Shown: positions 16,528-48,942 of the stretch, piece by piece
How the letters are laid out: each line of letters begins with the position of its first letter
Numbering within the stretch: the stretch's first letter is position 1
Assembly (NCBI RefSeq): GCF_014844075.1
Contig: NZ_CP062165.1
Location: 4,464,001 to 4,528,000 of the forward strand
Origin: Paenibacillus sp. JNUCC-31
GTDB lineage: Bacteria > Bacillota > Bacilli > Paenibacillales > Paenibacillaceae
Direction: 5' to 3'
Length of the DNA stretch: 64,000 nt
Notes under the pieces: generated by a model
Databases searched by the model: none
Told to the model about the DNA's origin: nothing
What the model saw: only the letters and a program-made list of their open reading frames with translations
Made by a program: the position numbers and the translations under genes

Positions 16528-16612
16528 TGTTTGTTTTATATTATAATGTCGGTAACTTTATAGTATTTTGGCGGTAGTTTTATTTAATGTTGTCGGCAAA
16601 CACGAAAAAACT
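16528..16612 (+). repeat. Left-end 22-bp repeat array (TnsB-like binding sites)
   Basis: Three head-to-tail 22-bp units begin at 16547 (TGTCGGTAAC...), 16569 (TGGCGGTAGT...) and 16591 (TGTCGGCAAA...). Units 1 and 2 agree at 15 of 22 positions. The 19 bases from TGT at 16528 match the right-end outer segment at 14 of 19 positions. Confidence 0.7.
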
Positions 16613-16654
16613 CGAATTATTCAGTGAAAAATATAGGATTATGGATTGTTTCCT

Positions 16655-16695
16655 CCATAAAGTGCAGTATCACATAGTGATACTGCACTTTATGG
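16655..16695. repeat. Perfect 19-bp inverted repeat with 3-base loop
   Basis: Arms 16655-16673 and 16677-16695 are exactly complementary around ATA. The right arm runs straight into TATAATGTCG followed by a T-run, the same string found at the other border. It could be a terminator closing dhaK or the left boundary against read-through, or a folded part of the transposon end. Confidence 0.85.
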
Positions 16696-16780
16696 TATAA
16701 TGTCGTTTTTTTATTCTGCATTTATGGTACAAGATATTTTGAGCTAATACTATATCTTCATTATATAGCGATGGTACAAG
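16692..16780 (+). repeat. Inner left-end motif copies
   Basis: TTTATGGTATAATGTCGTTT (from 16692) matches the right-end inner copy TTTATAGTATAATGTCGTTT at 19 of 20 bases. The TGTCG at 16701 is 110 bases (5 x 22) from the copy at 16591. ATGGTACAAG then recurs at 16724 and 16771. These look like additional transposase sites spaced from the terminal array. Confidence 0.6.
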
Positions 16781-17233
16781 AATTCAGTTCTATAGAGAAA
16801 AATGCGTTGTATCATTATGATTTTTACCTGTTCGATGAGAACATCCACTAGTAGATATTAGTACCCGCGAAACAGTTCATTTTTGGCCTTTAAACATGGA
16901 CCTCCTTCGCACATAATTGAGATAAATATTAGAATGATGTCAGACGATCTACATCATTCAAAAAAGAAATGAAGGGACTGCTTTTAGTAGTCCCTTTGTG
17001 GTTTATATCATCAATTGAGACAACATATGTACTGCTGAAACCCAGTAAGGGCGGGGATTCAGCGTATAAACATTCTGAAGGTCTGTTATTCGTCTTCGTG
17101 GCAACAGGATTCAAGTGGAAATGCGTATGAGAAGGGGTTATCAATAATGGACCACCAGGCACTTGAGCATTGGAGCAAGAATTGTGTTGGCAGGGATTGA
17201 ACATTTTGAAAGAAATAAATCAGTAAACCATTG

Positions 17234-17260
17234 AAAGTCGCTGTAATAGCGGCTTTTTTT
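17234..17260 (+). terminator. Rho-independent terminator
   Basis: AAAGTCGCT/AGCGGCTTT stem with a 5-base loop and a T-run ending at 17260. No intact gene precedes it, so it may be left over from a lost gene between 16.8 and 17.2 kb. Confidence 0.7.
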
Positions 17261-17330
17261 TATTTTAGGAAACCAAGTACCAGCCATAAAGGACAAGAAT
17301 ATATTCTAATTGTTATTGAGGAAATACCAA

Positions 17331-17396
17331 ATGAACAAGGTAACTACCAGAATCGACAAATCCTATTGTATAAATTCGTTCGAACTATTAAATTAA
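17331..17396 (+). CDS. Tiny ORF upstream of tldD, possible peptide precursor (speculative)
   Basis: A 21-codon ORF starting MNKVTTRIDKSYC, with TTGAGGA about nine bases upstream, 91 bases before tldD and on its strand. It contains Thr, Ser, Cys and Asn residues that could be modified, but no double-Gly or other recognisable leader site. It is listed because a TldD/TldE-exporter operon would be expected to have a substrate peptide and this is the closest ORF; chance occurrence is quite possible. Confidence 0.2.
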   Translation: MNKVTTRIDKSYCINSFELLN

Positions 17397-17487
17397 GAAC
17401 ATATTTTATTGTGTTAATCAATCTTCCATGACACGATATGAATACTATCATATATGTATTATTAGAAACATGACAGGAGTGAATACG

Positions 17488-18867
17488 ATGCTATCACAAA
17501 TCGAGATTGAAAAAATGCTAAATGCTGCACTTGAAACAGGTGGTGATTTCGCCGAAATTTTCGTTGAGGATAAGACAAACGCCAGTTTGAGCATGTTAGG
17601 TGGAGTACTGGAGAAAGCTGTCTCAGGGCGGGATTTTGGTATCGGAATCCGCATATTAAAAGGAGATTTCTGTGTCTATGCCTATACGAATGATTTTGCA
17701 GAAGAAAATCTAATTAAGGTAGCCCGTACGGCTGCTCAAGGGATTCAAGGACAGAAACAGGATATTACTTTGAACTTGATAAAAAAAGAAAAGTTTAATG
17801 CTCACCCTATAGAAATACCAACCTACAGCATTAGCAAAAAAGAAAAAATTGATTGGTTGAGAAGGGCGCATCACGCGGCTAAGGATTATGATCCAGTCAT
17901 TGGTCAGACCCAAATGTCATATAGCGAAACGATTCAAAATGTATTGATTGCCAATACGGAAGGCATCTATGTCGAAGATCGCAGAACCCGGAACATACTT
18001 AACTTCATGGCGATTGCAACTGCTGGAACAAGTATGGAGACCGGCTATGTGAATCCGGGTTATGTAGGTGGACTAGAGCATATCCGAAATCTCGATATTG
18101 AGTCTTATGCCAGAGAAGCTGCCAGAAGTGCAAAAACCATTTTAAATGCTGATTATGCTCCGTCCGGGAAAATCCCGGTCATCATTGACAATGCTTTTGG
18201 TGGAGTGTTGTTCCATGAAGCTTGTGGACACGGTCTTGAGGCGACATGTGTTGCGGATAATGCTTCCGTATTCTCAGGAAAGCTGGGAGAGTATGTTGCT
18301 TCACCTCTTGTTAGTGCCTATGATGACGGAACGATTACCAATGCATGGGGATCTGAAAATATTGATGATGAAGGTATGCCGAGTCAAAGGAATCTCCTCA
18401 TCGAGAATGGCATACTTAAAGGATATCTTATTGATAAAATCGGCAGTCGCAAAATGAACATGGCCCCTACCGGATCAGCAAGACGTGAATCTTACCGTTA
18501 TAGTCCGACATCGAGAATGACGAATACCTTCATTGCCTCCGGCAATTCGACACCTGAAGAGATTATTTCCAACACGGAATACGGAATATTCGCCAAGTAT
18601 ATGGGAGGCGGGTCTGTAAACACAGCAACCGGCGAGTACAATTTTAATGTAAGTGAAGGGTACATGGTGAAAAACGGGAAACTCGCTGAGCCAATCAAGG
18701 GTGCAACGCTAATCGGAGACGGGATGAGCACGCTGAAGAATATTGATATGGTAGGTAGCAATTTGGATTATGGCGTTGGCATGTGTGGGGCAAGAAGTGG
18801 GACGATCCCCGTAACTGTAGGCCAACCAACGATTAGAGTTTCAGAACTAACTGTAGGTGGAAGATAG
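17488..18867 (+). CDS. tldD: TldD-like metallopeptidase subunit
   Basis: 459 residues from the ATG at 17488 (MLSQIEIEK), with CAGGAGTGA eight bases upstream; the longer frame from 17428 has no site. TldD family: the HExxxH zinc motif is intact (His243-Glu244-Ala-Cys-Gly-His248, in FHEACGHGLEAT), followed by the conserved NLLIENG, GSARRESYRY and C-terminal GVGMCGARSG blocks. In E. coli, TldD with TldE forms a protease that removes the microcin B17 leader and degrades CcdA. Here tldE follows after 14 bases, then two exporters and a PLP enzyme, suggesting that this pair matures a peptide. It is the first gene of the operon. Confidence 0.92.
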   Translation: MLSQIEIEKMLNAALETGGDFAEIFVEDKTNASLSMLGGVLEKAVSGRDFGIGIRILKGDFCVYAYTNDFAEENLIKVARTAAQGIQGQKQDITLNLIKKEKFNAHPIEIPTYSISKKEKIDWLRRAHHAAKDYDPVIGQTQMSYSETIQNVLIANTEGIYVEDRRTRNILNFMAIATAGTSMETGYVNPGYVGGLEHIRNLDIESYAREAARSAKTILNADYAPSGKIPVIIDNAFGGVLFHEACGHGLEATCVADNASVFSGKLGEYVASPLVSAYDDGTITNAWGSENIDDEGMPSQRNLLIENGILKGYLIDKIGSRKMNMAPTGSARRESYRYSPTSRMTNTFIASGNSTPEEIISNTEYGIFAKYMGGGSVNTATGEYNFNVSEGYMVKNGKLAEPIKGATLIGDGMSTLKNIDMVGSNLDYGVGMCGARSGTIPVTVGQPTIRVSELTVGGR

Positions 18868-18881
18868 GAGGAGATTGGACA

Positions 18882-20225
18882 ATGAATATATATGAATTTC
18901 AAAAAGGATTGTTTGAACAAGGAAAGCAATATGGATTCAGTGATATGGAAATATTCTTTTCATCGAGCAAATCCACGAACGTAAGTGTGCAGAACGGCAA
19001 GGTGAAAGACTATAACATCACGGAATCAGCGGGTCTTTCCTTCAGGGGAATCTATAAGGAGAAGATGGGTTATTCATATAGCGAAAAAATAAGCGATGAA
19101 TCTATAGATTTTCTGCTCAAAGAAGCCTTGGAGAACGCCGAAGTCATTGAAATCGATGATGAAGAGGAACTATTCGAGAGCAGTGAGCGCTATGAAGCCA
19201 TTAATAAATATTCTGAGGATATAGCTCTATTGCCTGTAGAGAAGCTAATCGAGTCAGCATTCTCAATGGAGAGAACGGTATTGCAAGCGGACTCTCGAAT
19301 TAAACAAGTGCTCGATTGTACCGCTTCTAAATATTTATATGAGGTAGCCATTATGAATACGAAAGGACTGAATTGTTATTCACAAGGTTCTACGGCAAGC
19401 GCAGCGGTATATGTAATGGCGAGTGAGGGGGAGCAGACCTCAACAGGCTTTTACTACGATTTTACGCTGACAGACTTCTCTGAAATTGATGTTTATCATA
19501 TTGCAGATACTGCAGCAGCTGAAGCTGTTTCGAAGTTAGGTGCGGAATCCTTGCCATCCGGAAGTTACCCTGTGATATTCCGTTATGACACGGCGACGAA
19601 TCTGTTAGGTTCTTTGGTATCCAGCCTCTCAGGTGAAAATGTAGAAAAAGGACTGTCCAAACTGCAGGATCAGTTAAATAAAAAAGTCGTCGGCTCAAAC
19701 ATTAATATCATTGAGGATCCTCTTATGATTGGAGCACCTGGTGCAGCGGCTTTTGATGCAGAGGGTTACCCAACCCAAACAATATCTTTGGTTGAGGCTG
19801 GAAAACTGTTAAGTTTCATGCATAATCGTAAATCGGCTAAAAAAGCAGGAGTCAGCTCTACCGGTAATGCTTCAAAGTACAGTTATCGCTCCACCGTGGC
19901 AGTTGGTCCTCATAATGTGTATCTCAAACCGGGCGAGAGAGATTTAGATGAAATCATCAAAGATACAGAAAAAGGTATCTTCATCATTGAACTTCAAGGT
20001 ACACACTCAGGCATAAACAGTGTATCAGGTGACTTCTCATTATATGCTTCAGGCTTCCTGATAGAGGACGGAAAACTTATCAAGCCAGTGAATCAAATCA
20101 CGGTATCCGGAAATATTTTTGATGCTCTGAACAATGTGGATGAGATCGCGAACGATCTAATGCTTCGAGGCAATGTTACAGCACCATCCGTGAAGGTGAG
20201 AACCTTAGCTATAGCGGGACAATAA
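18882..20225 (+). CDS. tldE: TldE/PmbA-like subunit
   Basis: 447 residues with GGAGGAGA upstream. Partner of TldD: same fold but no HExxxH, as expected for the non-catalytic TldE (PmbA). Recognisable blocks are the N-terminal EIFFSSSKSTNVSVQNGKV, SGSYPVIFRYDTATNLLGSL, the central EDPLMIGAPGAAAFDAEGYPTQ, and the C-terminal GTHSGINSVSGDFSLYASGFLIEDGK. The last block is strongly conserved in PmbA. Fourteen bases separate it from tldD and 38 from the first ABC gene, so the two subunits are almost certainly co-expressed. Together they would form a cytoplasmic heterodimer that threads an unfolded peptide into a central cavity. Confidence 0.92.
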   Translation: MNIYEFQKGLFEQGKQYGFSDMEIFFSSSKSTNVSVQNGKVKDYNITESAGLSFRGIYKEKMGYSYSEKISDESIDFLLKEALENAEVIEIDDEEELFESSERYEAINKYSEDIALLPVEKLIESAFSMERTVLQADSRIKQVLDCTASKYLYEVAIMNTKGLNCYSQGSTASAAVYVMASEGEQTSTGFYYDFTLTDFSEIDVYHIADTAAAEAVSKLGAESLPSGSYPVIFRYDTATNLLGSLVSSLSGENVEKGLSKLQDQLNKKVVGSNINIIEDPLMIGAPGAAAFDAEGYPTQTISLVEAGKLLSFMHNRKSAKKAGVSSTGNASKYSYRSTVAVGPHNVYLKPGERDLDEIIKDTEKGIFIIELQGTHSGINSVSGDFSLYASGFLIEDGKLIKPVNQITVSGNIFDALNNVDEIANDLMLRGNVTAPSVKVRTLAIAGQ

Positions 20226-20263
20226 TCGACAACGGTTTTGTGGTTGTACTAGGGGGAAATTTG

Positions 20264-22033
20264 ATGAGAAATCAAGCAAGTGTTCAACCCAATGTGCGGA
20301 TGTTATTGGATACGGATGAAGATCGAAAAGTAAAGGTATGGAAGCCTTTTTTTAAGCTTATTGCCATGGTAAGGCTTCCCTATTGGTGGATAGCTCTGTG
20401 TATAGTTGCAACACTCTCTCAGGGCAGTATCGCACTGCTCTACCCTCAGTATGTTCAGAAAATCTTAGCAGGTGATCTCAGCCAAGGAACTATGTGGATT
20501 ACGATCGCTTTATTATTTGGCATAGGTTTAACAGTGAGCTTGGTGCAATTTGTTGCGAGTGTAACAAGTGCCAAGATTTCTTTGAAATTCAGAAAATTGA
20601 TTTGGGAACATCTAATTCATCTGCCGGTTCCTTATTATGACGTCAATATGCCAAGAGAAATGATCAGCCGTACAACAGATGATACCACAAAACTAAGTGA
20701 TCTTTTTGCAAGAGATTTGGGCAATGCCATTTCTTCAATATACCTCTTGATTGGAACTTTTGTCATTCTGTTTAGTTATGACTGGCGTCTGGCCTTCGTC
20801 GAAGCATTAATAATCCCACTCATCATAGCGCTAGGGATTATTAATGGTCGACTTAGTTTTAAATGGACAAACAGAGTTCAAGCCAGTCTGGCCCAATTAA
20901 CTGAATTTTTGTCGGAACTTCTACTAAATATCCCGCTGATTAAAACATTCACAAAGGAGAACAGAGAAGACAACCGGGGAAAAGAGTTAATTGACAAGTT
21001 GTATATTACGCGACTCATGTATGAGGTCATCACTAAAACACTACTATTAATGAATGAACTGATCAGTGTTCTACAAACCATCATTGTTATAGTGCTAGGG
21101 ATCTATCTCGTCTCTAAAGATATCATCACATTACCCATATGGATTGCATTTTATCTCTATGCACAAGGACTAACCAGTTCTGTAACTGTTGTTATGAATG
21201 CTTGGACCAATCTAAAAACTTGCCAGGGAGCAGCAAGACGAATTACAGAAATCTCTATCGAACCCACTGAGCCATATAATACTGTCTCGCAATCTAAAGA
21301 AATAAATGGTGATTTGTTGTTTGAGAATGTAACTTTTAAATATGCTGAAAATAACATACTGACCAATGTGAGCTTTATGATCCCTCATGGGAAGGTTACC
21401 GCTATTATTGGGCCAAGTGGAGCTGGTAAATCTACCATTTTCAATCTGGTTGAGCGCTTTTATAAGCCCGATACTGGCGAGATAAAGTTGGGTGATTACT
21501 CTATTAATGACTATAACCTTCAGGAGTGGAGGAGGTCGATTGGTTGCGTTTCTCAGGAAACCAAATTATTCTCGGGTACAATCCGGGATAATATCACGTA
21601 TGGTATAGATCGGGAGTTAAAAGAAGACGAGATCATTCGTGCTGCTAAAGCTGCTTCTGCCTGGGATTTCATTACGTCCTTCGACAATGGACTAGACACT
21701 GAAGTGGGTGAAGTTGGTTCCAAATTGTCCGGTGGGCAGAGACAGAGAATCGCAATTGCTCGCGTAATCTTAAAAGATCCCGAATACGTATTACTTGATG
21801 AAGCGACATCAAATCTTGATGCTGAAGCAGGATACTTGGTCAATCAGGCTTTAAAGAAACTGTGCGTCGGCAGAACCACGATAATTATTGCACATCAGTT
21901 ATCAACTATTGAGGCAGCCGATCAGATCATTTTATTATCCGATGAACAAGTGAGTGGTACTGGTAGTCATGAGAGCTTATTGGAAAGTAACGCGTTGTAT
22001 AGGCAGATGATTAATATTCAACAAGGCATATAG
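20264..22033 (+). CDS. ABC exporter half-transporter 1
   Basis: 589 residues from the ATG at 20264, with AGGGGGA seven bases upstream (the in-frame GTG at 20240 lies before the site). An N-terminal membrane domain (about 35-320, six predicted segments) is fused to a nucleotide-binding domain with Walker A GPSGAGKST, signature LSGGQRQR, Walker B YVLLDEATS and a switch His (IIIAHQLST). This is the type of an exporter half that dimerises. There is no N-terminal C39 peptidase domain, so a leader, if any, must be removed by another enzyme, which fits TldD/TldE. The second half-transporter follows after 21 bases, suggesting a heterodimer. Confidence 0.92.
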   Translation: MRNQASVQPNVRMLLDTDEDRKVKVWKPFFKLIAMVRLPYWWIALCIVATLSQGSIALLYPQYVQKILAGDLSQGTMWITIALLFGIGLTVSLVQFVASVTSAKISLKFRKLIWEHLIHLPVPYYDVNMPREMISRTTDDTTKLSDLFARDLGNAISSIYLLIGTFVILFSYDWRLAFVEALIIPLIIALGIINGRLSFKWTNRVQASLAQLTEFLSELLLNIPLIKTFTKENREDNRGKELIDKLYITRLMYEVITKTLLLMNELISVLQTIIVIVLGIYLVSKDIITLPIWIAFYLYAQGLTSSVTVVMNAWTNLKTCQGAARRITEISIEPTEPYNTVSQSKEINGDLLFENVTFKYAENNILTNVSFMIPHGKVTAIIGPSGAGKSTIFNLVERFYKPDTGEIKLGDYSINDYNLQEWRRSIGCVSQETKLFSGTIRDNITYGIDRELKEDEIIRAAKAASAWDFITSFDNGLDTEVGEVGSKLSGGQRQRIAIARVILKDPEYVLLDEATSNLDAEAGYLVNQALKKLCVGRTTIIIAHQLSTIEAADQIILLSDEQVSGTGSHESLLESNALYRQMINIQQGI

Positions 22034-22054
22034 AAGCACAGAGGGGGTGACTAC

Positions 22055-23776
22055 ATGAGTAACGCTGTTGTAAGGGAGCAGGGGTGGGGAAATTTCATCA
22101 AATTATTATTAAAATCCAAATTGCCTTGGAAATGGTATGTGGTGCAAGTAGTCGCTGGCATTATTATGTCGACGGCTATTGTAAAGCTGCCACAATTAGC
22201 CGGACAAGTCATGCAGGGTCAAATATTTGATAAGCAGCTGGTTACTCAATTTATTGTTTTAACAGTTGTCACTACGCTGCTAAAGGCATCGGTAAACATA
22301 TTTACCAGTTGGGTTAACTTGAACACGGATCGCAACATTGAGAAGTCTATTTGGACAAAATTAATCAGAATGCCGATGAGTTTCATAAATAGTCTGAATC
22401 CTTCTTCACTAACAAGTCGTGTGACAAGTGATGCTATAAGTGTCAGTCAGGCCCTTAGTCAGTTCTTTGCTCTCTTTTATGTGACATATACATTAATTTT
22501 AACTTTAATTACGGTCTATGACATGAATACGAAAATTTTTATGGCTATGTTTGCTCTTATTCCATGGGTCTTACTTGTAACCATACTGCCTGGAAGATTT
22601 ATGTTTCGTGCTCAAAACAAAATACAATCCAGATATTCGGAATTCACCAATTTTGTCACGGAGCGATTAGCCAACTTGCGCCTGATCAAATCTGCAAGTT
22701 CTGAAAAACATGAGGTACAGAAAGGCTTCGCAACAGCAGAAGACCAGTATAAATCAGAACTGTATATGGCCAAAGTTAACTTGATTGTGCAACCATTTAT
22801 ATTCTCAACACAAGGCGTTTGTATGGCCATCATACTTATTTATGGCGGTGTTCTTGTTAATCAAAACGAACTGGATATAGGGCAGCTGATTACGTTGTTG
22901 ATGTACTCGCAAATTATCCCAGGAATGGTCTCACAATATATATTATGCTACCAGGAGATCAAAAGAGCACAAGGCGCTACAAACAAGATTAGTGAGATTA
23001 TGGAGTCTGACAGTGAGAACGTTGAAGGGAAAATATCGTTTGCCCTGCCGGATGATGATATTGTCTTCAATAAAGTGTCGTTCAGTTATGGCAGAGAGAA
23101 TGTGTTATCCGACTTGAGTTTTGTCATTCCTAAGGGAAAAGTAACGGCCATTGTGGGGCCCAGTGGTTCGGGTAAATCGACTATCCTGAATATGCTGGAA
23201 CGTTTCTATAAACCAAAATCCGGGAAAATTTCGTTTGGCAATGTACCCGCGGAGGATATTCATCTGGATGAGTGGAGAAGTGCAATTGGTTATGTTCCAC
23301 AGAACAGCCCGCTTCTTTCTGGGTCCATTTGGGATAATATCGTGTACGGACTTGATCGAGAAGTGAAAGAAGAAGAAGTCATTCGCGCAGCTGAACAGGC
23401 AAATATCTACGAGTACATTAATAAGTTACCAGCAAGATTTCACACGAAAATTGGAGATTTGGGCTCCAAATTGTCTGGTGGACAGAAACAACGTATCGCT
23501 ATAGCTAGAACAATTATTACCAATCCTGATTACTTGCTACTGGATGAAGCCACCTGCAGTCTTGATCCGCAAAATGAACATGAGGTTCAGAAGGCTTTGA
23601 ATAATCTAATGCAAGGACGAACAACGGTAGTTGTAGCTCACAATATCAAAACGATCGCCAATGCGGATAATATCATTGTACTGAATCAAGGTAAAGTTAG
23701 TGCAACAGGAAAACATGATCAACTCTACATCGAAAATTCGCTTTATCGCAAATATTTTGACTTACAGTTTCATTAA
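22055..23776 (+). CDS. ABC exporter half-transporter 2
   Basis: 573 residues behind AGAGGGGGTGA. Same membrane-plus-ATPase build as the preceding gene: membrane domain about 25-310, Walker A GPSGSGKST, signature LSGGQKQR, Walker B YLLLDEATC, His in VVVAHNIKT. Walker B ends in C rather than the usual S after EAT. Being adjacent and diverged, the two probably form a heterodimeric exporter of a peptide or lipid. No accessory membrane-fusion protein is encoded nearby. The next gene starts about 49 bases after the stop. Confidence 0.92.
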   Translation: MSNAVVREQGWGNFIKLLLKSKLPWKWYVVQVVAGIIMSTAIVKLPQLAGQVMQGQIFDKQLVTQFIVLTVVTTLLKASVNIFTSWVNLNTDRNIEKSIWTKLIRMPMSFINSLNPSSLTSRVTSDAISVSQALSQFFALFYVTYTLILTLITVYDMNTKIFMAMFALIPWVLLVTILPGRFMFRAQNKIQSRYSEFTNFVTERLANLRLIKSASSEKHEVQKGFATAEDQYKSELYMAKVNLIVQPFIFSTQGVCMAIILIYGGVLVNQNELDIGQLITLLMYSQIIPGMVSQYILCYQEIKRAQGATNKISEIMESDSENVEGKISFALPDDDIVFNKVSFSYGRENVLSDLSFVIPKGKVTAIVGPSGSGKSTILNMLERFYKPKSGKISFGNVPAEDIHLDEWRSAIGYVPQNSPLLSGSIWDNIVYGLDREVKEEEVIRAAEQANIYEYINKLPARFHTKIGDLGSKLSGGQKQRIAIARTIITNPDYLLLDEATCSLDPQNEHEVQKALNNLMQGRTTVVVAHNIKTIANADNIIVLNQGKVSATGKHDQLYIENSLYRKYFDLQFH

Positions 23777-23825
23777 AAACATCAGTTTGTTCGCTTATCA
23801 TTCTAAGGTGAAGGAGTTTAAGGAT

Positions 23826-25004: not shown

Positions 25005-25025
25005 GTGGTTCCATCCTTATTAATA

Positions 25026-25064
25026 TGCATCATGATACAGATGCTGGATCTGTATCATGGTGCA
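25026..25064. repeat. Long stem-loop after the tldD operon
   Basis: Arms of 17 bases (25026-25042, 25048-25064) pair at 16 of 17 positions around GCTGG. No T-run follows, so it may act as an RNA-protecting hairpin or weak terminator between the plus-strand operon and the convergent methyltransferase gene. Confidence 0.75.
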
Positions 25065-25165
25065 TTAGCTACATATTTATCAAATGTTGCTCCTGTGATC
25101 ATCCAAATCCAAAAAAAAGATAAATTCCGTCATACTCGAGTTAGTGATGAGTGGATTTGTTTTCT

Positions 25166-25735: not shown

Positions 25736-25760
25736 GTTATCCTCCATCTGTGTTCATTAA

Positions 25761-25784
25761 GATGTTCTAAAAGAGTTCTGAAAG
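25761..25784 (-). promoter_or_regulatory. OmpR-type direct-repeat operator A (methyltransferase 1)
   Basis: Minus strand reads CTTTCAGAACT then CTTTTAGAACA, an 11-bp direct repeat with a third weaker unit, 25 bases before the gene start. It resembles the sites before dedA (28846-28867) and mprF (32782-32803). Confidence 0.5.
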
Positions 25785-39649: not shown

Positions 39650-39692
39650 TATGCGAACCGCCAAGCTTCAGGATACCTCACTTTTTGTTGCG

Positions 39693-41957
39693 TTAAACTT
39701 TGGGTTCATTCTCTTTCAGTTTGGATAACAGTTTGTCTCCCTCGACATCTAAATTCGGGAGTATACGGTCTAACCATTTCGGCAATTTCCATGCTTTATC
39801 ACCGAAGACTGCCATGACAGCAGGGACGAGTATCATACGAACGATAAAGGCGTCAATAAGAATACCAATAGCGAGTGTGAAACCGATCTGTTTAATACTG
39901 ATATCTGAGCTTAGAGCAAATCCGGCAAATACGGATACCATTATTACGGCTGCTGCTATGACAACGCGGCTCGACTGCTCATACCCGTGAACGATGCTGT
40001 CCCTTCCATTATATCCATGAACATAGGACTCACGCATGGAACTGACAAGGAAAACCTGATAATCCATAGCCAATCCGTAAAGAATTCCGGTGACCATGAT
40101 GGGCATAAAGCTTAGTATTGGACCGCCGGTGTCAAAGCCTAAGAGCGAATGCAACCAACCCCACTGGAACACCGCAGTACAGATCCCGAAGGTGGCAAGT
40201 ATACTAAGAAGGAAGCCGATTGTAGCTTTAATTGGAACAATAATCGACCGAAACACAAGAAGTAGAATAATCAGCGATAGGATAACAATAATCCCTACGT
40301 AGAGCGGGAATACCTGCGCCAGCTTTGAGGACATATCAATATTAATTGCAGTAAACCCGGTTACGCCGATCGTCATATCATTAGTCTTTGCAATACTCGA
40401 ATCGGTATCACGTAAATCCTGTACAAGCTTTTTGGTGGCTTTGTCAGAAGGTCCTGTTTTCGGAATGAGACTAATAATCGCCATGTCTCCCGTTTTATTA
40501 ATGTTCACTGGTATCACCTGTGCAACATTATCTTGTTTCTGGAGATCAGCTACAAGATTGTTCATCATTTCCGTTGAGATTTTCTTGGAAGAATCTTTGG
40601 ACTGGGAGACAAGAAGCAATGGACCGTTGAAGCCTTCGCCGAAACCTCTCGAAATGGCGTCGTAACTCTGCCTTGCTTCTGTTTTTAAATTGGCTGTGGC
40701 GCTAGAAGGAATTCCTAAATCCATTTTCGCAGCCGGAATTGCGGCAATGCCTAGTACAGCAATTGAACAGATAATAATAAGCCAACGATACTTAATTGTT
40801 CCCTTAACCCAGCGAGTCGCAATTCCATTGCCAGCATTGTTCTTATGACTGCTGTACTTCATACGTTCCTTTTTAGAGACTATACGTTCACCTACTAAAC
40901 CAAGCAGAGCAGGTAGGAGGGTTAGGGATATAAGTACGTTGACAAGGACGCTCGCTGCTGCGACCAGAGCCATTGTTGATAAAAACTCGATTCCAATCAC
41001 CAGTAAGCCGCACAAGGCACTAATGACTGTTAAGCCTGCAAAAAATACAGCGCTGCCTGCGGTGCCAATCGCTCTGCTCGCCGCTTCACGTGCGCTAAGT
41101 TTTTGGTCTAATATCATTCTACGCTGACGGTTTATAATGAATAGAGAATAATCGATTCCGACAGCCAATCCAACCATGAGTGCCAAGGCTGGAGTGGTAC
41201 CGTCCATATTAATGAATTTCGATAGTGCGAAGGCTCCAATCAAGCTGATGCCGACTCCGAGAATTGCAGTCAAAAGTGGTAGACCAGCTGCAACCATTGA
41301 ACCTAGTGTTATGAAAAGAACAATGGCAGCAACAACAAGTCCGATTGCCTCTGTAATACTGATTGGACTTACAGATATAAGCGAATCACCTGGCAAAGCA
41401 GTAATACCGGAATTATGCAGCTCGGTAGCTTTAATCGCATCCAATACAGAGTCTATTGTAGATTGAGGCAACGAATCAACCTGAACAGTAAAGTTAATCT
41501 GGAATAGACCTACGTTTCCGTCAGGGGAAAGCCTCACGTCAGGCATGAGTGCTTCGGATGCGCCTGCTGTTTTTGCTGCATCATGCTGTTTAGTCCCCGT
41601 ACTCGAACTGTCGGCTTTCCCACTCAATTCACTTGGATTTACCACATAATCCAGCTTGTAAACGTCTTGAATGGCTTTATTAATTAAGCTCAAACGTTCG
41701 GGTGTGTCCAGTCGTTCGCTTTTAGGTGTTGTGAACACGATTCTAGCTTGTCCACCGGTTGCTTCGGGACGTTCTTTAGCTAATTGATCCAAAACCTTTT
41801 GGGATTCTGTACCCTCAATTTTTATCCCCGAACTAAGATGAATACCGTTTGCTAGAAGTAATGACAGAACAACTCCAAGGATAGCGACCCAACCAACAAT
41901 AAAATACCAGGGTTTGTTATAGGCAGATTTGCCCACTTTGTACAAAAATGACGACAT
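39693..41957 (-). CDS. MMPL/RND-family membrane transporter
   Basis: 754 residues from ATG at 41957 (MSSFLYKVG), with AGAGGAGA about 10 bases upstream; the 33-residue longer frame overlaps the kinase gene. Typical MMPL: one N-terminal helix, outer domain, six helices with LALMVGLAVGIDYSLFI (motif with GxDY), a second outer domain, then six helices with GLAMDYQVFLVSSMRE. In Bacillota and actinobacteria such proteins export lipids, peptides or drugs using proton motive force. It is the third gene of an RR-HK-MMPL operon and so is likely induced by that two-component system. Confidence 0.92.
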   Translation of the reverse strand: MSSFLYKVGKSAYNKPWYFIVGWVAILGVVLSLLLANGIHLSSGIKIEGTESQKVLDQLAKERPEATGGQARIVFTTPKSERLDTPERLSLINKAIQDVYKLDYVVNPSELSGKADSSSTGTKQHDAAKTAGASEALMPDVRLSPDGNVGLFQINFTVQVDSLPQSTIDSVLDAIKATELHNSGITALPGDSLISVSPISITEAIGLVVAAIVLFITLGSMVAAGLPLLTAILGVGISLIGAFALSKFINMDGTTPALALMVGLAVGIDYSLFIINRQRRMILDQKLSAREAASRAIGTAGSAVFFAGLTVISALCGLLVIGIEFLSTMALVAAASVLVNVLISLTLLPALLGLVGERIVSKKERMKYSSHKNNAGNGIATRWVKGTIKYRWLIIICSIAVLGIAAIPAAKMDLGIPSSATANLKTEARQSYDAISRGFGEGFNGPLLLVSQSKDSSKKISTEMMNNLVADLQKQDNVAQVIPVNINKTGDMAIISLIPKTGPSDKATKKLVQDLRDTDSSIAKTNDMTIGVTGFTAINIDMSSKLAQVFPLYVGIIVILSLIILLLVFRSIIVPIKATIGFLLSILATFGICTAVFQWGWLHSLLGFDTGGPILSFMPIMVTGILYGLAMDYQVFLVSSMRESYVHGYNGRDSIVHGYEQSSRVVIAAAVIMVSVFAGFALSSDISIKQIGFTLAIGILIDAFIVRMILVPAVMAVFGDKAWKLPKWLDRILPNLDVEGDKLLSKLKENEPKV

Positions 41958-42045
41958 AATAATATGTTCTCTCCTCTTTCTATTGAATGAACATATTCTA
42001 TTGCATGTTTTTAAACTGAGTATAAACAAAAAACCACGAAACGCT

Positions 42046-43374
42046 TTAGCGCTCATGGTCAGGTAAAGTTACACTTATAATCGTTCCATGGTTCAGTTGG
42101 CTCTGCACATCGATCTGGCCTTGATGTAAAGCCGTAATTTTTTGTACAATCGCAAGTCCAAGACCGCTTCCCTCTTGTGAACGATTTCTTGCTTTATCAG
42201 ATTTATAGAACCTTTGGAAAATGAGCAGTGCATCTTCATCGGCAATCCCAATGCCAGTATCGATAATTCGAACAGTCAACTTGTTCTCACACTTTGTAAG
42301 TGAAATGGAGATACGCCCGCCTGGAGGGGTGAATTTTATGGCATTCGTTAATAAATTTATCCACACTTGCGCAAGTTGATCCTCATCCGCATTAACGAGA
42401 ATTTCCTGCATATCTAAATCAATATCCAATTTTTTTTTCGACCATAGCGGCTCTGTGGAGATTACCGTGCGTCTAAGCTGCTCGTCCAGACGAAAAAAGG
42501 TAGGGTTAAAAGGATGATGTTCCGACTCAAGCGAAGCCAGCTTCAATAAATCTTCACTTAAACGGGATACGCGCTCGCTTTCATCAGCAATTATCGACAA
42601 ATAACGTTTACGGTCAGCATCAGAAATATTATTTTGCAGCAAAGTGGTCGAAAAGCCAAGGATGGAAGTTAGCGGAGATTGGATTTCATGGGACACATTC
42701 GATACAAACTCCTGCCTCATCTGTTCGATTTGCCTCAGTTTTTTTACCATCTGATTGAAGCTGTCCGAAAGGATGCCCAACTCGTCTTTGTATTTGACCT
42801 GGACATTAACATGATAGTTGCCGGCTGCGATTTTTTTCGTAGCTTTAGTTAACATTTTAATGGGTCTAACCAGATAACGCGATGCGACAAAAATAAGTAA
42901 ACTTCCTATGATTAAACAGAGAACTAAAGCAGTCAAAACAATTTGATTGTAATTTTTAAGATAACTTTCAATGTGAAAATCAGCAAAAAGAGCATAGGAT
43001 TCTCCGTCAATGGATAGTGGAAGTCCAATAACAGCAACGTTATTGTTACTTTGATAGAGGCTTCCGTGTAATACTGCGTATATATCATTTTGATTTATGG
43101 AACGATTTGGATTTAAACTTGTTAGATCACTTTTATACAAACTCAACTTGTATTTCGAAACGGCCATCACACTCTCCATGTATCCATTAATATCCTCAAT
43201 TTGTTTCTCTGTAATATAGTTGACGATTTGCTTCCCCGCATATAAAGAATTCGCTTGAATCTTTAAGACAAAATAGTTACTGAATAGCACTCTTAATACT
43301 AAAAATGTTATTAGCATACTCATTAAGGTAATCCCTAGAAAAGTGACGACTACCCGGATATAGATTGATTTCAT
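42046..43374 (-). CDS. Sensor histidine kinase of the MMPL operon
   Basis: 442 residues, overlapping the response-regulator stop by ATGA. Two membrane segments (about 7-30 and 147-167) enclose an extracellular sensor of ~115 residues. Then HAMP (about 168-220), HisKA with VSNVSHEIQSPLTSILGFS, and an ATPase domain with NLLTNAIKFTPPGG, RIIDTGIGI and GSGLGLAIVQKI. All catalytic boxes are intact. Its large outer domain distinguishes it from the short-loop kinase at 25810, indicating a different signal. The MMPL exporter gene follows after ~88 bases. Confidence 0.92.
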   Translation of the reverse strand: MKSIYIRVVVTFLGITLMSMLITFLVLRVLFSNYFVLKIQANSLYAGKQIVNYITEKQIEDINGYMESVMAVSKYKLSLYKSDLTSLNPNRSINQNDIYAVLHGSLYQSNNNVAVIGLPLSIDGESYALFADFHIESYLKNYNQIVLTALVLCLIIGSLLIFVASRYLVRPIKMLTKATKKIAAGNYHVNVQVKYKDELGILSDSFNQMVKKLRQIEQMRQEFVSNVSHEIQSPLTSILGFSTTLLQNNISDADRKRYLSIIADESERVSRLSEDLLKLASLESEHHPFNPTFFRLDEQLRRTVISTEPLWSKKKLDIDLDMQEILVNADEDQLAQVWINLLTNAIKFTPPGGRISISLTKCENKLTVRIIDTGIGIADEDALLIFQRFYKSDKARNRSQEGSGLGLAIVQKITALHQGQIDVQSQLNHGTIISVTLPDHER

Positions 43375-44063
43375 GTTTCAGCGCCAACCTCCAGCCGATA
43401 GCCTAAACCGCGGATTGTGACAAGCCGGAAATCGTTCGTGACTTTAGCGAAACGCTCTCGCAGTCTATTGATATGAACGTCGACTGTACGGTCCACTCCT
43501 GTATAATCTAATCCCCATATTTGTTCGATCAATTGCTCCCTGGTGAAAATTTGTCCGGGATAGCTTGCCAGCTTGAACAGAAGCTCAAATTCTTTCAAAG
43601 GCATAGGAATCTGTTCATTATCTGTAGCCCTTATTACTTTCGCTTCAAGTCTGTTACGATCTAATTGAATATTGCCGATCTGGATTGTCTGCGACATGGA
43701 GATTCGGTACCGCTTTAATAGTGCTTTCACACGCATCACCATTTCCATCGGATCAAATGGCTTTACCAAATAATCATCTGTACCTAATTGGAATCCTTTC
43801 ATTTTGTGCGCAGACTCGCTTTTTGCCGTTACCATCAAAATGGGTATATCGCGATCCTCGCGCAAATACCTGCATAGCTCGTAACCGTCCATCTCAGGCA
43901 TCATAATGTCCAATATTACCAAATCAATCTTCTGTTCTTCTAAAACCTGTAAAGCTTTTTTGCCATTTTCCGCTTCCCATATATGAAAACCTTCCTTTTT
44001 TAAGTGATGGGCTATCAATTCTCTAATAAAAGCATCGTCATCGACGATTATGATTCTAGTCAA
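43371..44063 (-). CDS. OmpR-family response regulator of the MMPL operon
   Basis: About 230 residues from a TTG at 44063 (MTRIIIVDDD), which puts AGGAGG seven bases upstream; the in-frame ATG at 44069 would sit almost on the site. Receiver domain about 1-118 (VDDDAF, LVILDIMMPEMDG, YLVKPFDPME) and winged helix about 130-230 (MPLKEFELLFKLASYPGQIFTR, VDVHINRLRERF). First gene of the RR-HK-MMPL operon; the upstream ~235 bases to the MFS gene hold the promoter. Confidence 0.92.
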   Translation of the reverse strand: MTRIIIVDDDAFIRELIAHHLKKEGFHIWEAENGKKALQVLEEQKIDLVILDIMMPEMDGYELCRYLREDRDIPILMVTAKSESAHKMKGFQLGTDDYLVKPFDPMEMVMRVKALLKRYRISMSQTIQIGNIQLDRNRLEAKVIRATDNEQIPMPLKEFELLFKLASYPGQIFTREQLIEQIWGLDYTGVDRTVDVHINRLRERFAKVTNDFRLVTIRGLGYRLEVGAET

Positions 44064-44297
44064 GATCATTCCTCCTAATACAATTCCTCTTTCCATTCAA
44101 GGATCCAAGGTAACAATTGAATGTAAACTCCATATTAACTGGATTAAAAAAATGACGTTATATCAATAAGGATATTGGAATTTTTTTATTACTTGATATT
44201 GCGTTGGGTATCAAACGGTAATAATCAAAAAAAGCGAGAGATCAGACGTAAACGTCTTGATCTGCCGCCTGGATAGCAAACTTAACAATATGAAGCC

Positions 44298-45776
44298 TCA
44301 TTGGCTTACAATTTGTTTGTAGTCTTCCTCATCGACTTGTTTGGTTCGTTTGATAAAGAAGGAAAGAATCAATCCAACAAAAGCGATTCCGATGATAACA
44401 ACATAAGCATCATTGATACCTTGGATCATAGATTCTGTGGCCAACTGCTGTTGACTGAGGGCGTTGGCTGAACCCGTAGCTACGATATCCTGTGCATGTA
44501 CCTTTGCACGGGAAGTCATGACACTCACGAGTAATGAAGTACCTACAGCGCCAGAAACTTGTCTGATGGTATTAGAGATGGCTGTACCGTGTGCGCTGAG
44601 TCTTGAGGGCAGTTGGTTAAGCCCTGCAGTTTGAATCGGCATCATGAGCAAAGCGATACCAATTCGGCGGCTGGTTGACATTAATACCAAGAAACCATAA
44701 CTGGTTGAATCGGTTAAGTCGATGAAAGCAGTCGTTGTCAAGATGGTGATTACCATGCCGATAACAGCCAACCATTTTCCTCCGAATCGGTCAAATAACT
44801 TTCCGGTCACAGGCATAAGGAAACCCATAACAAGGGCACCCGGAAGGAGCAATAATCCAGATTCAAGTGCAGTAAATCCACGTGCGTTCTGGAGATACAA
44901 GGGAAGTAACATCATGTCAGCATACATGATCATCGTAATCGCGACATTAATGATCGTAGTTAGGGAAAACATGCTGTACTTGAAAGCCCGCAAATCAAGC
45001 AGGGGAGTATCGGAAACGAGCTGGCGCCATGTAAATAAGGCAAGAGCAACAATTCCTACAGCAATGAAGACAAGTACTTCTGCACTTGACCATCCCAGAC
45101 TTCCTGCCCTGCTGAATCCATACAATAATGCTCCGAATCCGATGGTCGACAGTACAACACTGATGATGTCGAATTTAGAGTTGACCCGTTCGGATACATT
45201 TTTCAGGTATACAAAAGCAAAACCGATGACCATAAGAGTTAACGGAATCATTCCGTAAAACATCGTTTGCCAAGTATAATTCACCAAAATATAACCGGTA
45301 AGAGTAGGCCCGATTGCAGGAGCAAAAATGATAGCAAAACCAACCATGCCCATTGCAGTTCCTCGTTTCTCAGGAGGATACAAGGTCATAACAACGTTCA
45401 TCAGGAGTGGCATGATAATACCAGCACCCGCAGCCTGAATCATGCGACCTGTTAGTAATATTCCGAAATTGGAAGCAAGGGCGGATACGATGGTGCCGAT
45501 TAAGAAAATAAACATGGAAGCTTGGAATAATTGTTTGGTTGAGAAACGTTGCATGAAATAGGCTGTGATGGGAATGAGAACTCCATTCACTAGCATGTAA
45601 CCTGTTGTTAACCACTGTGCCGTTGCTGCGGAAATGTTAAAGTCACCCATTAGCTCAGGGGTTGCGACACTCATGATGGTTTGATTCAACGTTGCAAGGA
45701 AGGCTCCCAAAATCATAATAAACAAGATGGGGCCTTTCTTTACAGAGAGTTCATCTTGCACTCTAGCTTGACTCAA
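44298..45776 (-). CDS. DHA2-family multidrug MFS exporter
   Basis: 492 residues with about 14 membrane helices, the DHA2 (EmrB/QacA) layout. Key motifs: LNQTIMSVATPELMGDF in helix 1, QWLTTGYMLVNGVLIPITAYFMQRFSTKQLF (motif A), GRMIQAAGAGIIMPLLMNV (motif B) and GWRD-equivalent FAPAIGPTLTGYI (motif C). It exports drugs by proton antiport. It is divergent from a TetR gene across a ~224-base gap with a 12-bp palindrome, the classic repressor-exporter layout. Confidence 0.92.
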   Translation of the reverse strand: MSQARVQDELSVKKGPILFIMILGAFLATLNQTIMSVATPELMGDFNISAATAQWLTTGYMLVNGVLIPITAYFMQRFSTKQLFQASMFIFLIGTIVSALASNFGILLTGRMIQAAGAGIIMPLLMNVVMTLYPPEKRGTAMGMVGFAIIFAPAIGPTLTGYILVNYTWQTMFYGMIPLTLMVIGFAFVYLKNVSERVNSKFDIISVVLSTIGFGALLYGFSRAGSLGWSSAEVLVFIAVGIVALALFTWRQLVSDTPLLDLRAFKYSMFSLTTIINVAITMIMYADMMLLPLYLQNARGFTALESGLLLLPGALVMGFLMPVTGKLFDRFGGKWLAVIGMVITILTTTAFIDLTDSTSYGFLVLMSTSRRIGIALLMMPIQTAGLNQLPSRLSAHGTAISNTIRQVSGAVGTSLLVSVMTSRAKVHAQDIVATGSANALSQQQLATESMIQGINDAYVVIIGIAFVGLILSFFIKRTKQVDEEDYKQIVSQ

Positions 45777-45834
45777 TTCTATTCATCCTTTCAATCCACG
45801 CATGACTAATTGTACAACGTGTAGTATAGTTTAC

Positions 45835-45846
45835 AATGTATACATT
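45835..45846. promoter_or_regulatory. Palindrome AATGTATACATT, candidate TetR operator
   Basis: Perfect 12-bp palindrome about 59 bases before the MFS start, in the divergent gap with the tetR gene. A position near the MFS promoter would allow repression. Confidence 0.45.
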
Positions 45847-46000
45847 AGGATTATATATATATTTGAACAGATTGCAATTTACGTATTGGTCATTTTTGTT
45901 GCTTATCTTACAAAAAAATAAGAACTTGTTGTGTAAATCAAAAATAAATAACAAATTTTTGTTGAATATTTAATGTTAAAAATTTGAAGGAGGGCTCGGC

Positions 46001-46585
46001 ATGAAGGGCGATAAGAAATCAGCGTTAGACCCAAGAATTGTGCGAACGCGTCAGTTAATCCGAGGTGCGTTTGTTGAATTGCTGAAGGAAATGGATATCG
46101 AAAAAATGTCGGTAAATAAAATTGCAAAACGTGCGACAATCAGTCGAGTAACTTTCTATCTGCACTATAACGATATCACGGATATGTTGGAGAAGATCGC
46201 CGATGAGATGATTCAGCACATTGAGCAAATTGTGGATGTATATGCTCCTGAATTTGAGAAGAAAAGAACGGAAGAGGCTTGGCCGGTTTTGGTGAAACTA
46301 CTTGAACATTTTGCAGAAAACTCTGAGTTCTATCAAGTGGTACTTACCACGAAGCGCACACCGATTTTCACAGAACGACTTCTCAAATTGTTCAGTAGAC
46401 TGGTCCAAGCTAAAAACGATCGAGTAGAAGTGGTCGGTCAACAAAATGAATCCGGTAATCACAAAGAGATTGCAATATGGTACGGTTCTTCCGCCCTGAT
46501 TGGAACTATTGATGCCTGGTTGCGACATGATATGCCTTATTCACCCCATTACCTTGCTAAACGTCTTATACTTCTAATGACCTGA
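46001..46585 (+). CDS. TetR-family regulator of the MFS exporter
   Basis: 194 residues behind GGAGGGCTCGGC. N-terminal HTH (about 12-58: VRTRQLIRGAFVELLKEMDIEKMSVNKIAKRATISRVTFYLHY), with the C-terminal ligand domain of the group often labelled TetR_C_7 or _8. Divergent from the multidrug exporter, so probably represses it and is released by its substrate. It is the last intact gene before the decayed region next to the right end of the element. Confidence 0.9.
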   Translation: MKGDKKSALDPRIVRTRQLIRGAFVELLKEMDIEKMSVNKIAKRATISRVTFYLHYNDITDMLEKIADEMIQHIEQIVDVYAPEFEKKRTEEAWPVLVKLLEHFAENSEFYQVVLTTKRTPIFTERLLKLFSRLVQAKNDRVEVVGQQNESGNHKEIAIWYGSSALIGTIDAWLRHDMPYSPHYLAKRLILLMT

Positions 46586-47053: not shown

Positions 47054-47329
47054 AATAACGAACGTAGGTTCCCTTTGTGTAATGGAAAGCAAACAAAAGT
47101 TCTTGTGGCCGTTGAGATTATTTATGAGGATCAGAGCGGCATGATAACGAGACGTCGTATGCAGGTCAAAATTATCCGATCCGGAATGATCAAAGTTGAT
47201 AATCTATTGTCCTGCATCCTATCCAATCAGAACAACGACTTGGTAGGCGAATATATGTTAGTTTATATTAATAGATTAAGCATTAATTTAACTAATAAAA
47301 AACCCAAGTTGGTAATAAAACCTACTTGA
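47048..47329 (+). pseudogene. Possible WYL-like small ORF or remnant
   Basis: A 93-codon open frame from a TTG inside the hairpin. The stretch VEIIYEDQSGMITRRRMQV resembles the start of small WYL-type proteins (I-x-Y-x-D-x-x-G-x-x-T-x-R-R), but the rest does not continue convincingly and there is no ribosome site. Read as a probable remnant. Confidence 0.3.
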
Positions 47330-47390
47330 GTTAGGGCAACTACTAAACTAAAAATATTATGTTGTAATATTTTCAAACATAAAATTAAGA

Positions 47391-47417
47391 AGAGACCGGA
47401 TCTATTGACCGGTCTCT
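47391..47417. terminator. Terminator-like hairpin
   Basis: AGAGACCGG (47391-47399) pairs with CCGGTCTCT (47409-47417). A T-rich stretch follows within 15 bases. Confidence 0.6.
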
Positions 47418-47796
47418 TTCGTTTGATTTTTTTCTGTAGGAGGATAGATATACACAGCTGGAAATACTTTTTTTAGGAGGGGTGAGGTTCAATGCCTTTT
47501 TCAAGACCTATTCTGAACTACGGAGGTGCCATAGCAAATGCGAATATTAAGTAATAATGATGTTAAAAAAGTATCAGATATTCAGCAAGTAATCAATCCC
47601 AGGCAAGGCAGGTATGGATATTAAACGGGTTACTTAAAGCATGACAAGGTGTTTGGACATAAAACAGTGACATGGTTTGCAGATACCGAGGGAATTCTCA
47701 TAATTTTACCCTTATCAAGTGGGCCCTTATGTAGCTGGATTTATAGAAGTAAAAGTACCCTACACAAGAATCGAGTCCAACAACACTATGCTTTTT

Positions 47797-48108
47797 AGAT
47801 TTAACAAAAGACTCAGTTAAATATTTGAAGCAAGGATAATTACCTAGTTTCAAAGAAATAGGCTTTGGAAAAACCATAAAACAAGTATCTGAGGCACTGG
47901 ATAGCAAAGTGAGAGAATCCTATTATGAGAGTGGAGGACTATTTTGGATTTTGAAGGATGGAACTATGCTTCTTTTAATTTCAGTGAAGAATCTGGGCGA
48001 CTAGCCTATGTATATTTAAGTTCTAGAGCTTTTCCTATGAAAGGGTTCGATGATATCGAGAAGATCTTGGGCAAAGGCATAAGGTTTGAAAGTACAAGAG
48101 TGGAGTGA
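47797..48108 (+). pseudogene. Decayed gene, DUF4309-like by pattern
   Basis: Two frames together read like one protein: DLTKDSVKYLKQG, an in-frame stop, LPSFKEIGFGKTIKQVSEAL, YYESGG, then after a frameshift ILDFEGWNYASFNF, EESGRLAYVYLSS and GFDDIEKILGKG before a stop. The order G-x-(L/I)-PS, G-x-G-T/K-T-I-x-x-V, D-I-x-K-x-LG-K recalls DUF4309-type proteins, but I cannot confirm that. At least one stop and one frameshift break it. Confidence 0.4.
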
Positions 48109-48251
48109 CTATCTCCGAATTTATTAATACCAAACTACCAGAGAAGTTTATAAATTCGGTGAAAAAATATCAGACTCTATCTGGACAAACTCGATTCCGA
48201 AAAATACCTTGTCAGTCGCCTTGATGTAGTTCATATCAAACGAGTACTACA

Positions 48252-48770
48252 ATGATCCGTTCTAAGAAGCCAAACATGACTTGGAATGGACAACAATATG
48301 ATCATGTTCATAGGTGTTCTGTTTGTTATGTAAAATACGGTTTCATTAAAAATGCAGAAGAACCTAATAAGCTTAATCAGGTGATTAAAGGAAAGTTAGA
48401 TGGTGCTGCGATGAGACAAAGGGCAGAGACATATATAAACAATCAAATTGCCAAAAATGAGATTATAGCAGACATCTATCTTTACAAGTATTTAGATACT
48501 ACTAAAAAGACTGTTAAAAAGTTATTTCCTGAGCTATTGGAATGGATTGAGGAACAGAAACAGTTACAGAAAGCGCGAATGAATAACAAAGTAGAGGAGG
48601 AGCGAATAGAGCGCATTAAAGAAGCCGTAATTCTTATCACAAATCATGGGGATTATCCAACTTATGAAAATGTTGTTGAAATAAGCGGAGTTCCTAAAAA
48701 TTACATTAGAACTCATAAGAAGGTAAGCAACGTCTTTAATGAGTTAAAGAAAAGATATAGGAGAAAATAA
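48252..48770 (+). CDS. TnsD/TniQ-like protein, probably 5'-truncated
   Basis: 172 residues; the start lacks a ribosome site, and the upstream sequence is broken by stops in all frames, so this is likely the C-terminal part of a once larger protein. It has a Zn-finger-like HRCSVCYVKYGFIKN early, a helical middle (YLDTTKKTVKKLFPELLEWIEEQ), and a C-terminal module ERIKEAVILITNHGDYPTYENVVEISGV. That last module (R-I-x-x-I-x-x-A-V ... G-x-Y-P-T ... V-x-x-x-S-G-V) resembles the C-terminal DNA-binding part of TnsD/TniQ proteins, which choose the Tn7 target. Similar modules also occur in Tn554 TnpC-like proteins. It ends ~80 bases before the right-end repeats, on the strand pointing to that end. Confidence 0.45.
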   Translation: MIRSKKPNMTWNGQQYDHVHRCSVCYVKYGFIKNAEEPNKLNQVIKGKLDGAAMRQRAETYINNQIAKNEIIADIYLYKYLDTTKKTVKKLFPELLEWIEEQKQLQKARMNNKVEEERIERIKEAVILITNHGDYPTYENVVEISGVPKNYIRTHKKVSNVFNELKKRYRRK

Positions 48771-48850
48771 TTTCTTCAAAATACTGCGGCAATTTATAAA
48801 CGAGCTGCTTATTTGTTCTTTTATTAAGCTAAAGAAGACTAATGATCAAA

Positions 48851-48942
48851 AACGACATTATACTATAAATTTACCGACAAAAAGACTATAAAATATTCAT
48901 CATATTAATGATTTTTACCGACAAAATAAAATAAAATTAACA
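48851..48942 (-). repeat. Right-end 22-bp repeat array (TnsB-like binding sites)
   Basis: Reading the minus strand from 48942: TGT, then TGTCGGTAA at 48923, a degenerate unit ending TTTTATAGTCTTTT, TGTCGGTAA again at 48879 and TGTCG at 48857. Spacings are 19, 44 and 22 bases. The copy at 48879 agrees with the left copy at 16547 at 19 of 22 bases. Confidence 0.7.

Follow-up and report, generated by a model that had tools for sequence, protein, structure and literature searches.

Tn7 homes to glmS by means of TnsABCD and makes a 5-bp target-site duplication. Tn7-like transposons in general are delineated by arrays of ~20-bp sites, and the passages of a 2021 mBio survey that treat their size give medians of 14 to 29 kb and a longest element of 140 kb (PMC8649781). 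As set out in those passages, the survey begins at tnsB, scans up to 125 kb on each side, and defines a Tn7-like transposon operationally by tnsB together with one or more further tns genes; because tnsB is its starting point, it would miss any element that lacks this gene. Tn5053, Tn5090, Tn552, and CAST are named together in the same source as having repeated transposase sites at their ends. Here, we describe a 32.4-kb block bounded by arrays of 22-bp sites in Paenibacillus sp. JNUCC-31. It lies directly after dhaK at positions 16528 to 48942 of a 64,000-nucleotide stretch (the window, G000:C1:4464001-4528000) in a genome consisting of a single contig of 7,551,121 bases. Very probably, this block is what remains of a Tn7-type transposon that targeted the dhaK 3′ end and subsequently lost tnsABC.

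The element shares with Tn7 the inverted arrays of ~22-bp sites, the TGT/ACA termini, the asymmetry of the ends (four sites versus three), an insertion point tens of base pairs after a conserved gene, and a TniQ/TnsD-type protein. It differs from Tn7 in its target gene, the absence of tnsABC, a broken tnsD, the motif of its ends, and the lack of matching 5-bp flanks. Inverted arrays of ~20-bp sites, putatively bound by a transposase, are present at both ends, as in Tn5053, Tn5090, Tn552, and CAST; unlike in these, no tniA/tniB, cas, or resolvase family was found in the cargo open reading frames (ORFs) scanned, and no search was aimed at CRISPR arrays. The length of 32.4 kb is near the size range given in the passages of PMC8649781 cited above. 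By the operational definition in that source, the element is not a Tn7-like transposon, because tnsB queries found none in it and tnsB plus another tns gene is therefore lacking; in its anatomy, it resembles the remains of such a transposon. In the sequence of events that we propose, a TnsB-type transposase would have bound the 22-bp sites at both ends, and TnsD would have recognized the 3′ end of dhaK. Insertion would have taken place ~30 bp past the dhaK stop codon with the four-site end toward dhaK, and tnsABC and most of tnsD would have been lost afterwards. What is left would today be an immobile, or at most trans-mobilizable, 32.4-kb cargo island.

Both arrays have a strict geometry (Table 1). 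TGTCGG-type cores lie on the plus strand at 16547, 16569, 16591, and 16701 on the left (register 0/22/44/154) and on the minus strand at 48923, 48879, and 48857 on the right (register 0/44/66). On both sides, the first core is 19 bases from the terminus (TGT at 16528; ACA ending at 48942). An initial annotation of the window, made from the sequence alone, had given these registers and the 19-base spacing of the TGT exactly. It had also put the best agreement between a left and a right site at 19 of 22 positions; the pairing is strong, but the true best pair, 16701 and 48857, is identical at 21 of 22. To avoid circularity, the sites were scored with a matrix built from 15 sites in genomes other than that of the window, and noise was estimated from 40 second-order Markov windows. 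Six of the seven sites had the six highest scores in the window (18.4 to 33.5, against a Markov best of 17.8), the weakest of the six being barely above the noise. The site at core 16591 falls inside the noise (13.6) and was accepted because it fits the register and is identical to the copy in genome G060. A two-core pattern matched twice in the whole genome, at the two element ends, so the arrays are confined to 16.5 and 48.9 kb as the initial annotation had it, and a common dispersed repeat, which it had named as a possible refutation, is ruled out. IMG/VR held no match to a 27-bp pattern searched as a phage source of the ends, and the right end had no match among the plasmids or phages searched. 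Between sites 3 and 4, proximal ends of the dhaK type hold a strong hairpin and those of the ABC-2 type a terminator-like stem (L119:12806-12821); either could possibly substitute for the terminator that insertion parts from the target gene.

The block also stands out in composition, as had been claimed: GC content is 0.393 within the element, 0.462 to its left, 0.426 in 48943-53210, and 0.469 beyond 53210. The initial annotation had suggested looking in relatives for an empty junction between dhaK and a short-chain dehydrogenase/reductase (SDR) gene. Arrays do stand at 16528 and 48942; foreign DNA, however, continues past the right end, and the foreign block as a whole runs from 16528 to ~53210, comprising the 32.4-kb element and 4.3 kb outside its right end. 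A tRNA as boundary was ruled out, as the window contains none.

The distance from the terminus to the dhaK stop codon is 30 nt in the window, 27 nt in G053, and 31 nt in G060. Such near-constant spacing after a conserved gene, here 27 to 31 nt in three genomes, is as in Tn7-like elements, and the 3′ end of dhaK would thus be the attachment site. We compared 23 of 60 dhaK-bearing relatives, leaving out L168 (G022) and seeking the cargo in their dhaK stretches; dhaK positions in this comparison are approximate, and a separate measurement agrees for the spacing at seven loci. In all 23, a counterpart of the gene at 53300-54478 lies downstream of dhaK, and none has the window's cargo in between. 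The gap from dhaK to this gene is <0.5 kb in 7 relatives, ~2 to 7 kb in 14, and ~20 kb in 2 (G053 and G060). Twenty-two cargo queries against the 23 stretches (E 1e-15) returned only 28-30% matches, from two ABC-transporter queries and one TetR query. The initial annotation had asked for an alignment of related genomes in search of an empty junction and had considered that relatives might hold the same genes here with no empty site. This is not so: the empty site is seen at the level of the locus in 23 of 23 relatives and at the level of single bases for G053, whose flanks, rejoined without its element, match G048, G052, and G077 in arrangement except for one additional T and a few substitutions. 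In G047, G048, G052, and G077, the ~170-bp 3′ flank of dhaK is similar to the inner half of the element's proximal end, including the hairpin and the fourth site; in eight comparisons with 300 shuffles each, no shuffle reached the score. These flanks are either relics of older insertions or a sign that the end took host sequence along; both explanations are compatible with insertions recurring at a single site, and both leave room for a chimeric island.

The element had been described as defined only by its ends, which no longer applies because a scrap of tnsD lies inside the right end. TnsD of G047, searched against the whole genome, gave a single match, at 48096-48494 of the window, with one internal stop and adjoining the right end. 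A profile of eight TniQ/TnsD proteins matched 1 of 669 reading-frame fragments of the window (48225-48767, E 3e-8), and a two-sequence TniQ/TnsD profile matched the same fragment with E 2.4e-12. Two collinear blocks of the fragment align, one the Cys-motif region and the other a C-terminal part; what lies between them is missing, and hhalign assigned the remnant a probability of 91-92%. Because of the match to G047 TnsD, the profile match, and the hhalign result, we think that the place adjacent to the right end was probably once occupied by a TnsD-type gene. Residues 280-660 of G047 TnsD, used as the query of a protein search, found nothing other than G047 TnsD.

Ends of this type were found in five further genomes of the genus (G053, G060, G022, G058, and G052) and in the named record L132 (P. 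xylanilyticus LMG 21957), as a result of the search over genome and relatives that the initial annotation had suggested. A three-core pattern matched 2 of 75 genus genomes, that of the window and G053 (C1:1067984, directly after dhaK). A strict tandem pattern, which does not match the window's own ends, matched 5 of 394 family genomes, all of the same genus. Five of the 12 stretches from a genome-collection search were Paenibacillus-group loci with real arrays; the other seven, outside the group, had no more than one site that scored at threshold 12 and were regarded as chance. The arrays have the form TGTTAA-TGTCGGTAA, and all termini start with TGTTAA except that of the G060 end on contig C35 and the window's left end (TGTTTG). 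The second G060 end is proximal and lies at dhaK. In G022, G058, and G052, an end follows an ABC-2 permease gene; in L132, it is near a TraB-family gene, and the stretch examined contains no ABC-2 gene. The dhaK island of G060 (L117:6877-14580) holds one 2567-aa ORF.

Both ends were seen only in the window and in G053, where a 16.4-kb element (L041, 1309 to 17705) at dhaK carries a PTS/GH1 operon, MFS transporters, a nitroreductase, and a TetR regulator; no transposition family was found in the nine ORFs of this element that were scanned. At the nucleotide level, the two elements have only their ends in common, their cargo being unrelated. Their right ends (48864-48942 in the window) are 96% identical over 79 bp, and dhaK with the left end is 83% identical over 1,445 bp. 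The left end of the window is 83% identical to that of G053 and 84% identical to that of G060. At 17% divergence, the chance of three or fewer mismatches over the right end is 0.0003. The proposed Tn7-type identity thus gains from a second element bounded by the same motif at dhaK of G053 and one end at dhaK of G060, in addition to the tnsD remnant and the near-constant distance past dhaK.

Of the tnsABC genes, claimed initially to be missing, none was matched in the element. Twelve TnsA/B/C proteins from four loci had no match at E 0.01 in six element sequences, of which those of G022 and G058 are partial. For TnsA and TnsC, tblastn was negative in the element, and PF08722 (TnsA) matched nowhere in the genome, nor in any control. 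The TniB model had one match in the genome (2533576, an 841-aa frame), which is unspecific, as 13 of 14 controls also match. The TnsB model PF09299 matched 17 of 75 genus genomes and 0 of 14 controls, with no match in the window's own genome; it misses tnsB of G009, whose tnsABC set is 40-48% identical to that of G047. A four-TnsB profile had matches in 23 of the 75 genomes; the only one in the window's genome covers 60 residues at 1389050-1389229. This lone TnsB fragment (G000:C1:1389034-1389290; L205:10034-10290) is 48% identical to TnsB of G010 over ~80 residues, and the 59.7 kb around it had no other tns match and no array of the element's type at ≥10 bits.

Among the six genomes with these ends, TnsB is present in G052 and G060 (by PF09299) and in G022 (by the four-TnsB profile, with TnsA and TniQ beside it), a fragment is present in G000, and neither PF09299 nor the four-TnsB profile detected TnsB in G053 or G058. 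In 19 TnsB stretches, L044-L046, and the further stretches scanned, arrays of this type never flanked tnsB. The second copy with tnsABC and these ends, for which the initial annotation had advised a search, was consequently not recovered in the tnsB stretches, and the second element, that of G053, lacks a transposition family. We consider an immobile relic more likely than an element mobilized in trans, because neither search detects an intact TnsB in three of the six genomes and because, in the TnsB neighborhoods examined in G052, G060, and G022, the machinery is not bounded by arrays of this type.

The Tn7-type machineries examined in G052 and G022 are associated with other repeats. In G052 (contig C29; L103 and L123), inverted repeats of TCATAATTAGTGAGAC (2303 on the plus strand and 26685 on the minus strand) enclose 24.4 kb with tnsA, tnsB, tnsC, and two TniQ/TnsD genes at the ABC-2/TraB locus. 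This complete element is from the same genus and shares its locus with an array of the window's type, at 26451-26573, ~110 bp inside one TCATAATTAGTGAGAC repeat and on the same contig as tnsABC; unlike the window element, it has TCATAATTAGTGAGAC as its inverted end repeats. The G052 tnsABC may act on ends of the window's type. In L132, a TCATAATTAGTGAGAC repeat abuts the window-type end from outside. The G052 element also holds PycTM-, cyclase-, and DndB-type genes, and the TCATAATTAGTGAGAC end family occurs in L046, L118, and L164 as well. In L208 (G022:C7:48000-67900), TnsA-, TnsB- (664 aa), and TniQ-like genes lie near 23-bp GGTACAAGTTCTTGTCC repeats, and no array of the window's type was found in this neighborhood. 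L044 (G047) holds tnsA, tnsB, tnsC, a 476-aa TniQ, and a 664-aa TnsD, without ends having been found; by eye, the set adjoins genes resembling a nucleotidyltransferase-type defense cassette. De novo searches for ends in G047 and G009 yielded no convincing array.

The cargo is functionally mixed. Pfam families are a TldD/PmbA-type pair, two ABC transporters, a Cys/Met PLP enzyme, methyltransferases, two-component systems, an LPG synthase (MprF-like), a LytTR/GHKL pair, GH95, MMPL, MFS, and TetR; no transposition or recombinase family was found in the cargo ORFs scanned. The TldD/PmbA-type pair and, after it, the two ABC transporters and the Cys/Met PLP enzyme occupy 17428-25004, possibly a peptide-maturation or export cluster. 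Beyond the right end, homology with G053 picks up again at 53210. At E 1e-15, queries with the SDR, old yellow enzyme (OYE)-type, and alcohol dehydrogenase (ADH) genes and the 192-aa ORF of the intervening segment matched nothing in the dhaK stretches of the 23 relatives, and no array of this type bounds the segment on its far side. In the reading that we favor, this is a locus at which foreign DNA accretes.

Table 1. Features of the dhaK locus of Paenibacillus sp. JNUCC-31 (window coordinates)
Feature	Position	Strand	Details
dhaK, Dak1+Dak2 fusion, 589 aa, putative target gene	14728..16497	+	Pfam PF02733 (E 7e-129), PF02734
Proximal terminus next to dhaK, TGT	16528..16530	+	
Proximal 22-bp site 1	16534..16555	+	Score 33.5 with matrix from other genomes
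Proximal 22-bp site 2	16556..16577	+	Matrix score 28.6
Proximal 22-bp site 3, weak	16578..16599	+	Matrix score 13.6, within noise; identical 25-mer in G060
Inverted repeat between sites 3 and 4, 19-bp arms, 3-nt loop	16655..16695	+	Read by eye; like dhaK 3′ flank of relatives
Proximal 22-bp site 4 (+154)	16688..16709	+	Matrix score 30.3
Cargo	17428..46585		Pfam scans; families in text
Broken copy of protein like L113:18480-19553	47704..48105	+	tblastx pieces in several frames, E 1.8e-30
Decayed tnsD/tniQ remnant	48096..48770	+	Cys-motif stretch with one in-frame stop, then 172-aa ORF
172-aa ORF with C-terminal part of tnsD	48252..48770	+	Inside right end
Distal 22-bp site (+66)	48849..48870	−	Matrix score 24.5
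Distal 22-bp site (+44)	48871..48892	−	Matrix score 18.4
Distal 22-bp site 1	48915..48936	−	Matrix score 24.7
Distal terminus, ACA on plus strand	48940..48942	−	
Foreign segment outside right end: SDR, OYE-type, Zn-ADH, 192-aa ORF	48943..53210		Pfam
Conserved gene following dhaK in relatives	53300..54478	+	23/23 relatives

Several observations weigh against a transposon that inserted as one unit and then lost tnsABC. The flanks of G053 amount to a 1-bp duplication when compared with relatives; those of the window (ACTAG/AGTAC) match at 3 of 5 positions, an agreement that is uninformative on duplication. The left terminus of the window departs from the TGTTAA of most others. No TnsB is tied to these ends, the tnsABC queries were negative in every element sequence, and the sole TnsB-like piece of the genome is nearest to the TnsB of G010, from another lineage, and lies 3.1 Mb away. 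At 24-30% identity, the match to TnsD is weak, and the elements of the closest TnsD relatives, G047 and G009, showed no array of this type, so tnsD and the ends may stem from different elements. Finally, the ABC-2/TraB locus (G022, G058, G052, and L132) and dhaK of G060 show a single end, and some arrays are therefore solo remnants. Part of this would be accounted for by a chimeric island, in which two successive insertions at the dhaK site were fused by loss of the DNA between them and 16528-48942 was never one mobile unit. We regard this as rather unlikely. It would agree with the lack of matching 5-bp flanks in both the window and G053, with left ends that diverge about as much as dhaK (83-84%) and right ends that diverge far less, with the presence of two end families at one locus in G052, and with the dhaK flanks of G047, G048, G052, and G077, which look as if older ends had been overwritten. 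However, each of the two elements pairs a left-type with a right-type end, correctly oriented, and the flanks of G053 rejoin to within 1 bp.

The contrast between the right ends and dhaK with the left end, too large for chance at 17% divergence, would also suit a non-autonomous family, whose members would as a rule be without tnsABC and depend on a complete Tn7-type element in the same cell to move them in trans. Both two-ended copies lack a transposition gene in the ORFs scanned and have no cargo in common, and G052, G060, and G022, half of the genomes with these ends, have TnsB. Yet G053 and G058 have none by either search and G000 has a fragment, the machineries nearby carry other repeats (TCATAATTAGTGAGAC in G052, although on the same contig as a window-type array, and GGTACAAGTTCTTGTCC in G022), and the tnsD remnant suggests a once fuller element; we consider such a family unlikely. 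A broader version of this idea seems to us similarly doubtful, namely, that large Tn7-type islands without tnsABC form a lineage of their own, whose members retain functional ends, exchange their whole cargo, home to dhaK and to the ABC-2 permease locus, and borrow TnsABCD from other elements. Most improbable is that the arrays bind another recombinase or a host protein and that the tnsD scrap is unrelated cargo. The lack of a TnsB linked to the ends and the 1-bp duplication in G053 would be in keeping with this, but inverted contiguous 22-bp sites, TGT/ACA termini, the near-constant dhaK distance, and a TnsD-type remnant jointly fit a Tn7-type element, and the cargo ORFs scanned contain no recombinase family. 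A Tn7-type transposon that homed to dhaK and then lost tnsABC remains the reading that we favor.

Literature searches combining Tn7-like elements with Paenibacillus, and dihydroxyacetone kinase with Tn7, showed no such term in a title or abstract, and "kinase" does not occur in the portion of PMC10293859 searched; the literature searched did not show dhaK described as a Tn7-type attachment site. The case presented here points to dhaK as one. The end arrays alone revealed an island that lacks its enzymes, and searching for the arrays gave a second two-ended island in another species. Islands that keep their ends but lose their enzymes go unseen in a survey based on tnsB, as the one in PMC8649781 is described in the passages cited. 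With these ends as a concrete set, one can now ask whether any TnsB still moves them and, if so, which.

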